From Clostridiales bacterium (GTDB lineage Bacteria > Bacillota > Clostridia > Lachnospirales > WRAX01), in the NCBI GenBank assembly GCA_031265685.1, contig JAISCI010000029.1:1-50123 (forward strand): a DNA stretch of 50,123 nucleotides, given 5' to 3'. Under the pieces are notes generated by a model. It saw only the letters and a list, made by a program, of their open reading frames with translations, did not search any database and was not told the DNA's origin. The position numbers and the translations under genes were made by a program. Position 1 is the first letter of the stretch. Every line of letters starts with the position of its first letter. This document shows, in pieces, positions 190 to 38,203 of this stretch.

Positions 190-215
190 GAATTTTGCCA
201 GAACCCGCAAAATTC
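190..215. repeat. short palindromic element, GAATTTTGC-cagaaccc-GCAAAATTC
   Basis: perfect 9-bp inverted arms around an 8-nt centre. Confidence 0.8.
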
Positions 216-262: not shown

Positions 263-289
263 GAATTTTGCGTGAACCAAGCAAAATTC
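263..289. repeat. 27-bp palindromic element, GAATTTTGC-gtgaaccaa-GCAAAATTC
   Basis: perfect 9-bp arms, 9-nt centre; same family as the copies at 12620, 37915 and 38048. Confidence 0.85.
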
Positions 290-7947: not shown

Positions 7948-8156
7948 TATAATATTATAATTTGCTACGAAATTTTATAAAAATCTTTGCAAATTTGTGA
8001 AAATAGTAGGTAACGCACAGAAGATTTGCGGAATTAACGGGCGTATTGCGCAACGCTCCGCGAAAGATGTTTCACAACAGGGAGGGGGATACCCGTCCGG
8101 TTATCCCCCGTTTCACAGCGCCGGCTCCGAAAGGCGATTCGCGCTTAATACCAATA

Positions 8157-8244
8157 CTAATCTCCATTTTGAGGAATAGAAAAGATTTTTCAAGTCCGCG
8201 CTTCCGCTTTGAAAAATATTTTCTACCAATCTAACGGAGATTAG
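8157..8244. repeat. MITE-like inverted-repeat element, copy A
   Basis: termini CTAATCTCC...GGAGATTAG with internal GATTTTTCAA...TTTGAAAAATATTTTC complementarity; same architecture as 12571-12706. Confidence 0.7.
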
Positions 8245-9541
8245 CATGATCTCCATTTGAGGAATAGAAAAGATTTTTCAGGTGCGCGCCTATATGCTCG
8301 GCGAGCCGCTCGGCGTAATCTTCCGCGTGTTCCGCCCAGAGCCGGTACAACCGGCTGCGGAACTGCGGCGCCGTCAGAATATGCCCGTAGGTGATGTGGA
8401 CGACCTGGCGCGCGTCGTCGTCGTCCAGAACGGACGGAAGGTCGGAATCGGGAACGCCGGAAATATCCGGGGCGCTTTCGGGCGCCGCCTTAACGTGGTA
8501 GAATCGTCGCGCGTCCGCGAAACTCTCCAGAGCGAAGGCGTAAACCTCGCGGAACAGCGCCGGATCCGCCGCCGCGACCACGCGGACCGCCTCGAGCCAG
8601 TTGGTGCCGGCGGTCTTCAGGTGGAAGCGACCGCGCGTCAGTCTGCCGACGGAACGGAACACGGCGAATTTATCCGATCCGGAATGGATCGACAGTTTGT
8701 ATCCAAACCGTTCCGCTATCTCCCGGTGCGCGGCCAGCTCGCGCTCGAATTGGCTTATATCGCCGATATAGTCGATCCCCTTCTGAAACTCACCGCAAAA
8801 GCGCGGCGCGACGGTCGCGGGACGGACGCCCCGCGCGGCCAGACTTTCCGCTACGTACAGATGCTGGGCCGGCGTCGTGGGCGTATCGGTCTCGTCGATC
8901 GACAGCTCGAAATCCACTTTGCCGCCCGCGGGCGCGATGTAATCGTGATAGATCCGCGCGGCGAATTCTATCGCGTCTCCGTACACCGCGCGGCAGCTTT
9001 CGGGATCGTCGCCCGAGCCGGGGCGGATATGATCGGAACAATCCAGCGTTATCATCGTGTACCCCAGGCCGATCGCGGCGGTTATGTCCTCCGGGCGCTT
9101 CAGGTGGTCGGCGTCCGCGCCGTAGCCGCGCCGGTACCCCTCTCGGAAGACGGCGAATGTCGCCGCGTCGAGCACGTCCTCAAAGGACCGGTTCGTCAGC
9201 GAAAGCTCGCGCGCGGACTGCTGAGCGAACACCGGAAACACGTCGTAATCCGCGACGGCGCGGATATGCCCCGGCGTCGCGACGCCGAGGCGATCCCCCA
9301 GGCCGATCGTGCGCGGATTGGACAGTATCGGAGCGGGCGCGGTGAAAGGCAGCAGAGAGCGCAGCGCGGCGGCGTTCGCGCGGGTCAGTTCGCCCCCGCC
9401 GAACGCGTCTTTTACGGCGCCGGCGGTCACTACTATGTCGCGCCCATTGTGCCGCGCCATGGCGAGGCCTCCGTCTTGCACCTCGCTCACCGAGTCCGGG
9501 TACACGCGCGCGCCATCCGGCAGTACGAAATCAATACTCAA
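8231..9541 (-). CDS. uxaE: tagaturonate epimerase family protein (UxaE-like)
   Basis: 436 aa, TTG start; IGLGDRLGVATPGHI, NRSFEDVLDAATFAVFREGY, GADADHLKRPEDI and TLDCSDHI motifs recalled from the UxaE family; beside uronate genes. Confidence 0.8.
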   Translation of the reverse strand: MSIDFVLPDGARVYPDSVSEVQDGGLAMARHNGRDIVVTAGAVKDAFGGGELTRANAAALRSLLPFTAPAPILSNPRTIGLGDRLGVATPGHIRAVADYDVFPVFAQQSARELSLTNRSFEDVLDAATFAVFREGYRRGYGADADHLKRPEDITAAIGLGYTMITLDCSDHIRPGSGDDPESCRAVYGDAIEFAARIYHDYIAPAGGKVDFELSIDETDTPTTPAQHLYVAESLAARGVRPATVAPRFCGEFQKGIDYIGDISQFERELAAHREIAERFGYKLSIHSGSDKFAVFRSVGRLTRGRFHLKTAGTNWLEAVRVVAAADPALFREVYAFALESFADARRFYHVKAAPESAPDISGVPDSDLPSVLDDDDARQVVHITYGHILTAPQFRSRLYRLWAEHAEDYAERLAEHIGAHLKNLFYSSNGDHANLR

Positions 9542-12570: not shown

Positions 12571-12706
12571 CTAATCCCATTTTACAAAGACGGGTAAAAA
12601 TTTTTCAGTTCGCGCCAAGGAAGTTTGCTTGGTTCACGCAAACTTCAGAGCCGCGCGAACGCGCTGACGCTTGAAAAATTTTATCCATAAATCTAAATGG
12701 GATTAG
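12571..12706. repeat. MITE-like inverted-repeat element, copy B, with a nested 27-bp palindrome
   Basis: CTAATCCCATTTTAC...AAATGGGATTAG termini and TTTTTCA...TTGAAAAATTTT inner arms, as in 8157-8244. Confidence 0.75.
12620..12646. repeat. 27-bp palindromic element, GAAGTTTGC-ttggttcac-GCAAACTTC
   Basis: perfect arms; nested in MITE-like copy B. Confidence 0.85.
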
Positions 12707-20109: not shown

Positions 20110-20213
20110 GAATTTTGCTTGACAGAAGTTTGCATCGCATTTTCGCTTGGATGAATTTTGCGGCTTTACGCAAAATTCTGTCAGGCGAAAATACTTCGAT
20201 TCAAGCAAACTTC
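20110..20213. repeat. nested palindromic elements, three complete levels plus an extra left arm
   Basis: gaagtttgc(20125)/gcaaacttc(20205); gcattttcgc(20137)/gcgaaaatac(20185); gaattttgc(20153)/gcaaaattc(20170). Confidence 0.8.
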
Positions 20214-27525: not shown

Positions 27526-27561
27526 GGAATTTTGCGTGACGGAATTTCGCTTGCGAAATTC
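27526..27561. repeat. nested palindromic-element arms, ggaattttgc gtgac [ggaatttcgc tt gcgaaattc]
   Basis: inner arms complementary; outer right arm decayed. Confidence 0.55.
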
Positions 27562-30289: not shown

Positions 30290-30696
30290 CTTACTTGATT
30301 AGGGCGCAGGAGGAAAAATTGCGAAGCTATGCGGTAGCCAGGGATTGGGCGGTCTACAAAATTTACGCGGACGAGGGAGTCAGCGCGAAGGACATTGATG
30401 GCCGCCCGGCGGTCAAGTAGTTGATTGCGGACATTACGGAGGGCAATGTCAACAATGTGCTGGTCTATAAAATCAATCGTTTGACGCGCTCGGTGAAAAA
30501 TCTGATTGAGTTGGTTGACTTGTTCAATCAGCACCGTTGCGCCTTTAACTCGTTAAACGAGTCGATTGACACCACCACCGCCACCGGGCGCATGTTCCTA
30601 AAAATCGTGGGGATTTTCGCCGAGTTTGAGCGGGAGAACTTGGCGGAGCGGGTACGGCTGGGACTGGAGCGGAAGGTGCGCGAGGGCTATACCTAA
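30290..30696 (+). pseudogene. serine recombinase (resolvase domain) remnant with an in-frame TAG at 30418
   Basis: VYKIYADEGVSAKDIDGRPAVK*LIADITEGNVNNVLVYKINRLTRSVKNLIELVDLF...TATGRMFLKIVGIFAEFERENLAERVRLGLERKVREGYT*. Confidence 0.8.
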
Positions 30697-31130: not shown

Positions 31131-31604
31131 TTAGTCGTGCTGATCCTTTCGCAAATATTTGTCCACAAAGTCCGAAAAATCGCGCGCCGCGCCCTCGTCC
31201 GCGTAATCGTCCCAAAGCCAGACGGCGTTACCCTGCGCTTCCTGAACGCACACGCCCTCGCGCACAATCGTCCGGTACACGCGCGTCTCCAGTTTCGCGG
31301 CCCAAGCCATCATCAGGCTTATGTACAGCCGCTCGTTGTTCGTCGCCCTGTTTCGCCCCAGAAGAATGCCGTCAATCCGCAGCTTTGGGTTAAGCTGGCG
31401 AATTTCCGGCAGACCTTCGATCAGGTTGACACAGCCTTGAACGTTCGCGCTGTCGGGATGAAGCGTGATGATCATATCGTCGGCGCAGTTCGCGGCTTGC
31501 AGCATCTGCATCGTTCCGACCAGCGGCTGGTTGTCGATGACGATGTAGGAATATTCAGACTTTATCGGCTCCAGCGCCTTGTCAAGCGCCTTGACGCCGT
31601 TCAT
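31131..31604 (-). pseudogene. N-terminally truncated ParA/Soj-family ATPase
   Basis: SEYSYIVIDNQPLVGTMQMLQAANCADDMIITLHPDSANVQG...GILLGRNRATNNER; Walker A region missing. Confidence 0.6.
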
Positions 31605-31833
31605 CGACGTGCTGGAACTGTTCTACCAGATGGCCGCTCTGTCCAAAACATTTTCCAAAAAACGTCAGGGAAAAAGTGAGCCATATATCCGGTGTAGGCT
31701 ACCCTCGGATAGGCAAATCATAATAAGGACATCTCTCATAGAAAATAAAGCCAACTGTATTTTGAGCCATACCCAACTGGGCATATGCATTATAACATAG
31801 ATGAAATGCCGTGACAGGACATTTAAGGAAAAA

Positions 31834-32103
31834 TTATCCTCTCGCCACTTGGGGTTGGTCGTTCCAATTCTTGAAATTTTTGTTCGGCAAGTGTAGCCGC
31901 GTGTTTGGGTGTTTTGCCCGGATTTTCTCTATAAATTCGCGGCCAGCCTCGTCGTTGTCCACGCACAAAACCGGCTCGGCTCCCACTCCGGCGACGCCGA
32001 GCGTATGCTCCAGCACGTTTTCTTTCAACCCCGCCAGCGATACCAAAAGACATCCGGTCAGAGACTTGCCAACGCCGCGCTCAATCTCAATAAAAGATAA
32101 CAA
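31834..32103 (-). pseudogene. TOPRIM-domain fragment (primase/mobilisation type)
   Basis: LLVSLAGLKENVLEHTLGVAGVGAEPVLCVDNDEAGREFIEKIRAKHPNTRLHLPNKNFKNWND; start missing. Confidence 0.6.
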
Positions 32104-32398: not shown

Positions 32399-32520
32399 TA
32401 ATTTTCGCCTGATGGAATTTCGCTTGGTTCGAAGCATTTTTGCTTGGACGAAGTTTGCTTGAACCACGCAAACTTCTGTCACGCAAAAATGCGATGCGAA
32501 ATTCGTACCCGCGAAAATTC
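32399..32520. repeat. four-level concentric nest of palindromic elements
   Basis: taattttcgc(32399)/gcgaaaatt(32511); gaatttcgc(32415)/gcgaaattc(32496); gcatttttgc(32434)/gcaaaaatgc(32483); gaagtttgc(32450)-ttgaaccac-gcaaacttc(32468). Confidence 0.92.
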
Positions 32521-37721: not shown

Positions 37722-37747
37722 GAATTTTGCGGGTCCAAGCAAAATTC
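37722..37747. repeat. palindromic element, GAATTTTGC-gggtccaa-GCAAAATTC
   Basis: perfect arms, 8-nt centre. Confidence 0.8.
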
Positions 37748-37914: not shown

Positions 37915-37941
37915 GAATTTTGCGTGGTTCAAGCAAAATTC
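37915..37941. repeat. 27-bp palindromic element, GAATTTTGC-gtggttcaa-GCAAAATTC
   Basis: perfect arms. Confidence 0.85.
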
Positions 37942-37942
37942 A

Positions 37943-38203
37943 TCAGGCGTTGTAACGCGCCGCCTTGCCTACTGAATTTTGCGTGGCCCTTGCAAAATTC
38001 ATCGCGGCGGCGCGGATGTCGCCCAGCCGCTCCCTTATCTCGCCAAGGAATTTCGCTTGATTCACGCGAAATTCTGAGAAGCCCTCGGCGTCCATCCGCG
38101 CGAAGCAGGCGCGTTTTTTGGAGGGCTGGCAATTTCCTGCTCGTCCGCCGCCGTCTGATTCGCCTCCGCGAATATAGACCGTATCGTGTCCGCGATTGCC
38201 CAT
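37943..38203 (-). CDS. small phage/mobile-element-like protein carrying palindromic elements in frame
   Basis: AAGGAGG RBS then MGNRGHDTVYIRGGESDGG...; EFRVNQAKF and NFARATQNS segments are encoded by palindromes at 38048 and 37974. Confidence 0.5.
   Translation of the reverse strand: MGNRGHDTVYIRGGESDGGGRAGNCQPSKKRACFARMDAEGFSEFRVNQAKFLGEIRERLGDIRAAAMNFARATQNSVGKAARYNA
37974..38000. repeat. 27-bp palindromic element, GAATTTTGC-gtggccctt-GCAAAATTC
   Basis: perfect arms. Confidence 0.85.
38048..38074. repeat. 27-bp palindromic element, GAATTTCGC-ttgattcac-GCGAAATTC
   Basis: perfect arms. Confidence 0.85.

Follow-up and report, generated by a model that had tools for sequence, protein, structure and literature searches.

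Concentric nests of short palindromic repeats in a Clostridiales genome suggest layer-by-layer insertion at hairpin tips

Results

A four-level nest upstream of a GH127-like gene

The window analyzed here, 50,123 nucleotides of Clostridiales bacterium contig JAISCI010000029.1 (assembly GCA_031265685.1), carries four concentric inverted repeats at 32400-32519, and every arm pair is exactly complementary (Table 1). This nest stops 40 bp short of the start codon of a large gene resembling GH127 beta-L-arabinofuranosidases, with Pfam domain PF07944 and laminin-G-like domains. Short open frames at 30421-30696 and 31131-32103 look by eye like a serine recombinase, a ParA-like ATPase and a Toprim domain and are possibly remains of a mobile element adjoining the nest.

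A first-pass annotation had described four inverted-repeat pairs around a common centre. We recovered all of these arms, exactly complementary, and its positions hold within one base: the outer left arm begins at 32400, and at 32399 only if the preceding T is counted. It held that unrelated hairpins would not stack in this way. Of 1,000 dinucleotide-preserving shuffles of the nest region, none exceeded two levels. An exact 9-bp stem was absent from 982 shuffles, while 17 had one level, 1 had two and 0 had three or four. Folded as RNA, the nest reaches -51.7 kcal/mol (z = -5.9 versus shuffles). A search of the window with Rfam at the gathering threshold gave zero matches.

TABLE 1 Parts of the four-level nest and other members of the repeat family in the window
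Feature	Positions	Strand	Basis or partner
Whole nest C > A > B > A	32400-32519	.	Exact arms, shuffles, fold z -5.9
C-unit left arm AATTTTCGC after AAGGT, a context shared with other C units	32400-32408	+	Partner 32511-32519
CTGA-TG, C loop left half plus 2-nt junction	32409-32414	+	Empty CTGAACCC loops elsewhere
Outer A-unit left arm GAATTTCGC	32415-32423	+	Partner 32496-32504
Left A-to-B linker TTGGTTC-GAA, half of A loop TTGGTTCAC plus B flank GAA	32424-32433	+	Grammar
B-unit left arm GCATTTTTGC	32434-32443	+	Partner 32483-32492
Left B-to-A linker TTGG-AC	32444-32449	+	Recurrent junctions
Inner A-unit left arm GAAGTTTGC	32450-32458	+	Partner 32468-32476
Terminal loop TTGAACCAC, one recurrent tip allele	32459-32467	+	Other tips of family
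Inner A-unit right arm GCAAACTTC	32468-32476	+	Exact complement
Right B-to-A linker TG-TCAC	32477-32482	+	Recurrent junctions
B-unit right arm GCAAAAATGC	32483-32492	+	Exact complement
Right B flank GAT	32493-32495	+	Recurrent junctions
Outer A-unit right arm GCGAAATTC	32496-32504	+	Exact complement
GT-ACCC, junction plus C loop right half	32505-32510	+	Recurrent junctions
C-unit right arm GCGAAAATT before CATG, a context shared with other C units	32511-32519	+	Exact complement
Single-level A unit	190-215	.	
Single-level A unit	263-289	.	
E frame without inner A/B units	8156-8245	.	
E frame with one A unit (12620-12646) in loop	12570-12707	.	
A-A-B-A nest, partly decayed	20110-20213	.	
Tandem A arms around short centre, partly deleted	27527-27561	.	
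Single-level A unit	37722-37747	.	
Single-level A unit	37915-37940	.	
Single-level A unit	37975-38000	.	
Single-level A unit	38048-38074	.	

Unit types and nesting grammar

The host assembly is a 2.2-Mb draft in 130 contigs (91% complete, apparently metagenome derived). Searching it with the nest gave about a hundred partial matches, and the loci we read comprise these matches and stretches totaling about 0.7 Mb (~30% of the assembly). Four unit types, designated A, B, C and E, recur. A arms read GAA[G/T]TT[T/C]GC around a tip of 9 nt (such as TTGGTTCAC or TTGAACCAC) or 8 nt (such as CTGAACCC), B arms read GCATT[T/A]T[C/T]G[C/T] with tips as in A, and C is AAGGT-AATTTTCGC. E has ends beginning ATACTAAT, a second variable stem and GTCCGCGC/GCGCGGAC. 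The A unit is 27 bp, units of the A and B types measure about 27-36 bp, and C and E are longer frames. A arms with a short flank (GAAKTTYGCKTG) number 646 in the assembly (2 for the reversed control), B arms with a short flank (GCATTWTYGCNTG) 207 (control, 0) and E-frame ends (ATACTAATYYCM) 88 (control, 0). A generic detector of concentric nests (two or more levels) gave a density of 126 per Mb for a 0.68-Mb genome sample, compared to 2.9 per Mb after block shuffling.

The order of enclosure is E, then C, then A and B within each other. Among 198 nests resolved by a simple parser, on which these counts rest, the parent>child pairs were A>B (73), B>A (56), A>A (47), C>A (17), C>B (4) and B>B (4); C was never inside A or B, and E encloses C or A. 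At least two levels with a recognized outer level were present in 94 of the 198, versus 0.08% at random flanks, and the deepest nest had eight. The other 104 were single A, B or C units at unrelated sites. Nearly every locus has its own order, arm variants and depth.

The linkers between levels are fixed and asymmetric, the two sides reading TTGGTTC-GAA and GAT from A to B, and TTGG-AC and TG-TCAC into A; B follows GTTC, and A leaves TTGG/TCAC in both A and B parents. The window's C loop CTGAACCC has A between its CTGA and ACCC halves (CTGA-TG-[A]-GT-ACCC), and empty CTGAACCC loops are present elsewhere in the host genome. The linkers are the remnants left by placement of a unit into the tip of its parent. 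For the 9-nt loops, this tip-insertion reading requires the loss of 1 central base, and at B junctions 2 bases appear to be replaced. The inner junctions are split loops without direct repeats, and no classical form of the target duplication that the annotation had asked about is apparent there. Arms within a level carry the matching variant in 94.5% of cases, compared to 45% when shuffled, so the two arms of each level came as a matched pair or are kept matched.

Layers differ in number at the same site and in decay

Two diverged, broken IS1182-like genes of the host genome (71% DNA identity) have hairpins at matching positions; the comparison is thus between paralogues inside one draft assembly (91% complete), not between strains. 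The two copies (L077:10241-11821 and L156:1050-2690) hold several A-type hairpins each, some of them common to both. At site 3, the outer hairpin is common to both copies, and depth is 1 in copy 1 and 5 in copy 2. Copy 1 has a single A hairpin (CCCAAGT / GAATTTTGC ttggtacac GCAAAATTC / CTTTATGCAC), and copy 2 reads GCGCAAGT / GCATTTCGC, four further levels (inner A, B, A, A), then GCGAAATTC / TTTTATGCAC. At site 1, the single A of copy 1 corresponds to a decayed A frame with A/B material in copy 2. At site 2, the hairpin is in copy 1 only, and the corresponding position in copy 2, the only apparently empty external site, falls in a diverged stretch.

The E frames form a depth series: bare (28-39 nt), with the second stem (89 nt), with a GC-rich stem (about 109 nt), with one A (133-138 nt), with two or three A (169-180 nt) and with A/B/C stacks of up to 299 nt. 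In the E frames of L034 and L046, the loop flanks match and the inner stacks differ.

Arm mismatches rise outward within nests (permutation P = 0.0003), as expected if the outer layers are older. Their mean is 0.19 for levels that enclose no other, 0.67 for those enclosing one, 0.73 for two and 1.16 for three. The innermost level was left out of the test because nest detection favors intact arms there, and the test was limited to recognized units. Moreover, 73 of the 83 paired B hairpins sit inside another hairpin, compared to 9% at random by the same loose test; insertion into inverted-repeat structures is also a trait of IS1182/IS1272-type elements.

Units have thus been placed repeatedly at hairpin tips, with the parent arms kept at each level, and we put the probability that the layers were added one by one by insertion at these tips at about 0.85. 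The annotation had proposed that each element entered the centre of an older one, with loci of fewer levels to be looked for. One versus five levels at the same IS1182 site, E frames ranging from bare to about 300 nt and the greater decay of outer layers all speak for that proposal. The 122-bp nest does not recur as one conserved unit, depth and order varying by locus. A history of insertion only is too simple, however, as centres have also been lost. The short E frames L107, L089, L075 and L062 keep scraps of inner stems and are clearly centre-deletion products, so nest depth can fall as well as rise.

Such derivatives, together with nests that were duplicated whole (L043/L061), would also be expected if nests spread ready-made or if small nests were deletion products of a large ancestral one. 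We consider this highly improbable: order, arm variants and depth are different at nearly all loci, single units are common at unrelated sites (104/198), and the decay gradient contradicts layers of equal age. Elsewhere, at L158 (reverse strand, ~1466-1500 of the reverse complement), an unrelated gene meets an IS1182 fragment exactly at an A unit, which suggests that hairpins also mark rearrangement breakpoints.

Genomic placement

Predicted genes contain 20 of 177 hairpins, compared to 77% of random positions (simple codon-usage gene caller). The intergenic hairpins lie in 70 tandem, 29 divergent and 17 convergent gaps, and the background gaps number 144, 45 and 32, respectively. Terminators would be scarce in divergent gaps. 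We rejected a terminator reading, since divergent gaps are not depleted and the intergenic copies are spread over the gap types much as the background is. Some A units lie in frame within genes (L077:10824-10854, L062:7438-7466 and L067:11564-11620), adding a 9-residue peptide such as EFCVNQAKF, and one A-in-A nest inside a gene also keeps the frame.

Strong folds and intergenic placement are what one would expect of nests that are selected structures (terminators, RNA elements or protein-binding sites). Against this stand the background-like gap orientations, a depth ranging from 1 to 8, the lack of an Rfam match and the in-frame copies inside genes, and we regard selection for such a role as very improbable indeed. 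No host function of the stack is evident, and the pattern is more in keeping with genomic parasites that the host tolerates than with host signals.

Distribution among relatives

The nest is absent from 57 other genomes of the host's family and order, and the E frame has weak partial matches at most, in 3 of 95 genomes. When one genome per GTDB species was scanned for the exact pattern, five isolated matches appeared, none with A arms nearby; these were rejected as chance, as was one viral match. Given the absence from relatives and the isolation of the GTDB matches, the family is apparently restricted to the host lineage within the genomes compared.

Other palindromic repeats were seen in related genomes. 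A sister-genus genome (G001) has a homogeneous palindromic family of ~112 bp, mostly single unit and without modular nesting, in about 20 copies (e.g., L126:8859-8970); two 70-bp copies have no centre (e.g., L126:16177-16246). In relative G002, a TTTTCGTG unit forms an inverted tandem array (L139:1391-1469) that is A-in-A-like with a different sequence, and relative G007 has a similar array (L142:1861-1985). These two arrays are possibly an independent case of the same nesting process.

Discussion

Palindromes nested in one another have been described before. The mitochondrial and plastid palindromes of Volvox carteri average 50 nt, are intergenic and often nested, and form elements of up to 633 nt (PMC2670323). 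They resemble the nests of the present genome in the insertion of palindrome within palindrome, but they lie in organelle DNA, have TAAA/TTTA loops and differ in sequence from our units; a layer-by-layer grammar, same-site series and decay gradient do not appear in the available part of that source (PMC2670323). The first-pass annotation named no described bacterial family of this size with such self-targeting, and Rfam has none that matches. The Volvox organelle repeats are comparable in their nesting, so the principle is not wholly new.

Bacterial REP elements of the GTAG and CGTC families are high-copy palindromes of 20-40 bp, some inside genes, and some lie within longer palindromes in Anabaena variabilis, T. 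roseum and H. neapolitanus (PMC3733652). The A unit is REP-like in its 27-bp size, its more than 640 arms genome-wide and its intergenic bias. In contrast to our nests, REPs as presented in the accessible text have one level only, carry a GTAG or CGTC tag and are often dimers, and target palindromes without a REP were not found, whereas the host genome has empty frames (PMC3733652). No GTAG or CGTC tag was found at the hairpin foot in the flanks of single A units. Pneumococcal BOX, RUP and SPRITE elements are inserted into one another but, unlike the nests, are not described as concentric, tip targeted or multilevel (PMC3049150). Rickettsia palindromic elements, of about 150 bp, are found in frame inside genes (PMC10969869). 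A units share this in-frame placement. To our knowledge, the Rickettsia elements have no concentric nesting. Classical MITEs have terminal inverted repeats related to an autonomous IS; E frames have long terminal inverted repeats, and no gene-bearing partner was seen in the sampled stretches. In the openly accessible literature, we found no bacterial family with concentric, multilevel, tip-targeted stacking. Palindrome nesting itself is already known, and there is a real chance that the underlying hairpin-tip activity is new.

We propose that the nest is a stack of short noncoding mobile palindromes (A and B) and longer frames (C and E), whose preferred landing site would be the tip of a folded hairpin, their own kind included, so that each insertion would supply the tip for the next. 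Once a hairpin or cruciform is extruded, its loop may be attacked as single-stranded DNA, and a trans-acting recombinase or transposase would insert the small hairpin there. Centre deletions also trim the stack. The identity of the inserting agent is much less certain than the layering. A Y1 (RAYT) transposase was not found in the host assembly (PF01797 search; controls detected; 91% complete), and a search for Y2 enzymes gave zero matches but was uninformative, as its controls were equally silent. Between E ends, no gene was found in the sampled stretches. IS110 is present, partly broken and without an informative shared insertion. Near the end of contig C46, an IS110-like gene is broken by a short palindrome of another sequence beginning CGTTTAGAAACGAGCAATG (L170:874-919).

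Candidate agents include DDE enzymes of the IS1182 kind, which target structure. IS1272, of the IS1182 family, recognizes hairpin structure rather than sequence and makes no target duplication (PMC5678879), and because it targets inverted repeats of unrelated sequence, the IS1182 family is a plausible candidate. An IS1182-family transposase may thus have spread the hairpins, the units being minimal derivatives that are each both element and target. Remnants of the family occupy at least five loci in the host genome, but every copy found is broken or partial, and the apparent ends (CAGACCGCGCAAAAA), read by eye, are unlike A, B, C or E. In addition, IS1272 is a gene-bearing insertion sequence that replaces its target stem-loop and is not described as stacking (PMC5678879), whereas here the parent arms are kept at each level. 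We therefore consider this route rather improbable.

The main rival, still unlikely in our judgment, requires no transposase: hairpins stalled in replication would switch template from one dispersed copy to another via the 9-nt arms and copy other tips into the centre. This would account for arms and tips that are near-identical across hundreds of dispersed copies, for the tip trinucleotides GTT and AAC in both orientations, as inversion between arms would give, and for the common centre deletions. Units at new unrelated sites and in frame within genes call for real mobility, however, and B keeps its asymmetric GAA/GAT flanks fixed whatever the parent loop. Both template switching and IS1182-driven spread concern the agent, not the layering. 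A further reading, to which we give somewhat less than even odds, is that A and B (about 30 bp) are two-partner, self-perpetuating minimal mobile hairpins that target their own or each other's tips and are moved by an as yet unrecognized hairpin-tip integrase.

Small palindromic repeats are common, and how they spread is mostly unclear; the nests make their multiplication directly testable. Like tree rings, the layers of a nest record its history from the outside inward and so reveal the order of insertion. Replication through such deep palindromes is expected to be difficult, which means that the host has to tolerate or trim them. Together, the nests, the decay gradient and the same-site intermediates point to an activity that recognizes hairpin tips. 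If the two-partner reading is true, these hairpins would be among the smallest known kinds of mobile DNA, making their own target.
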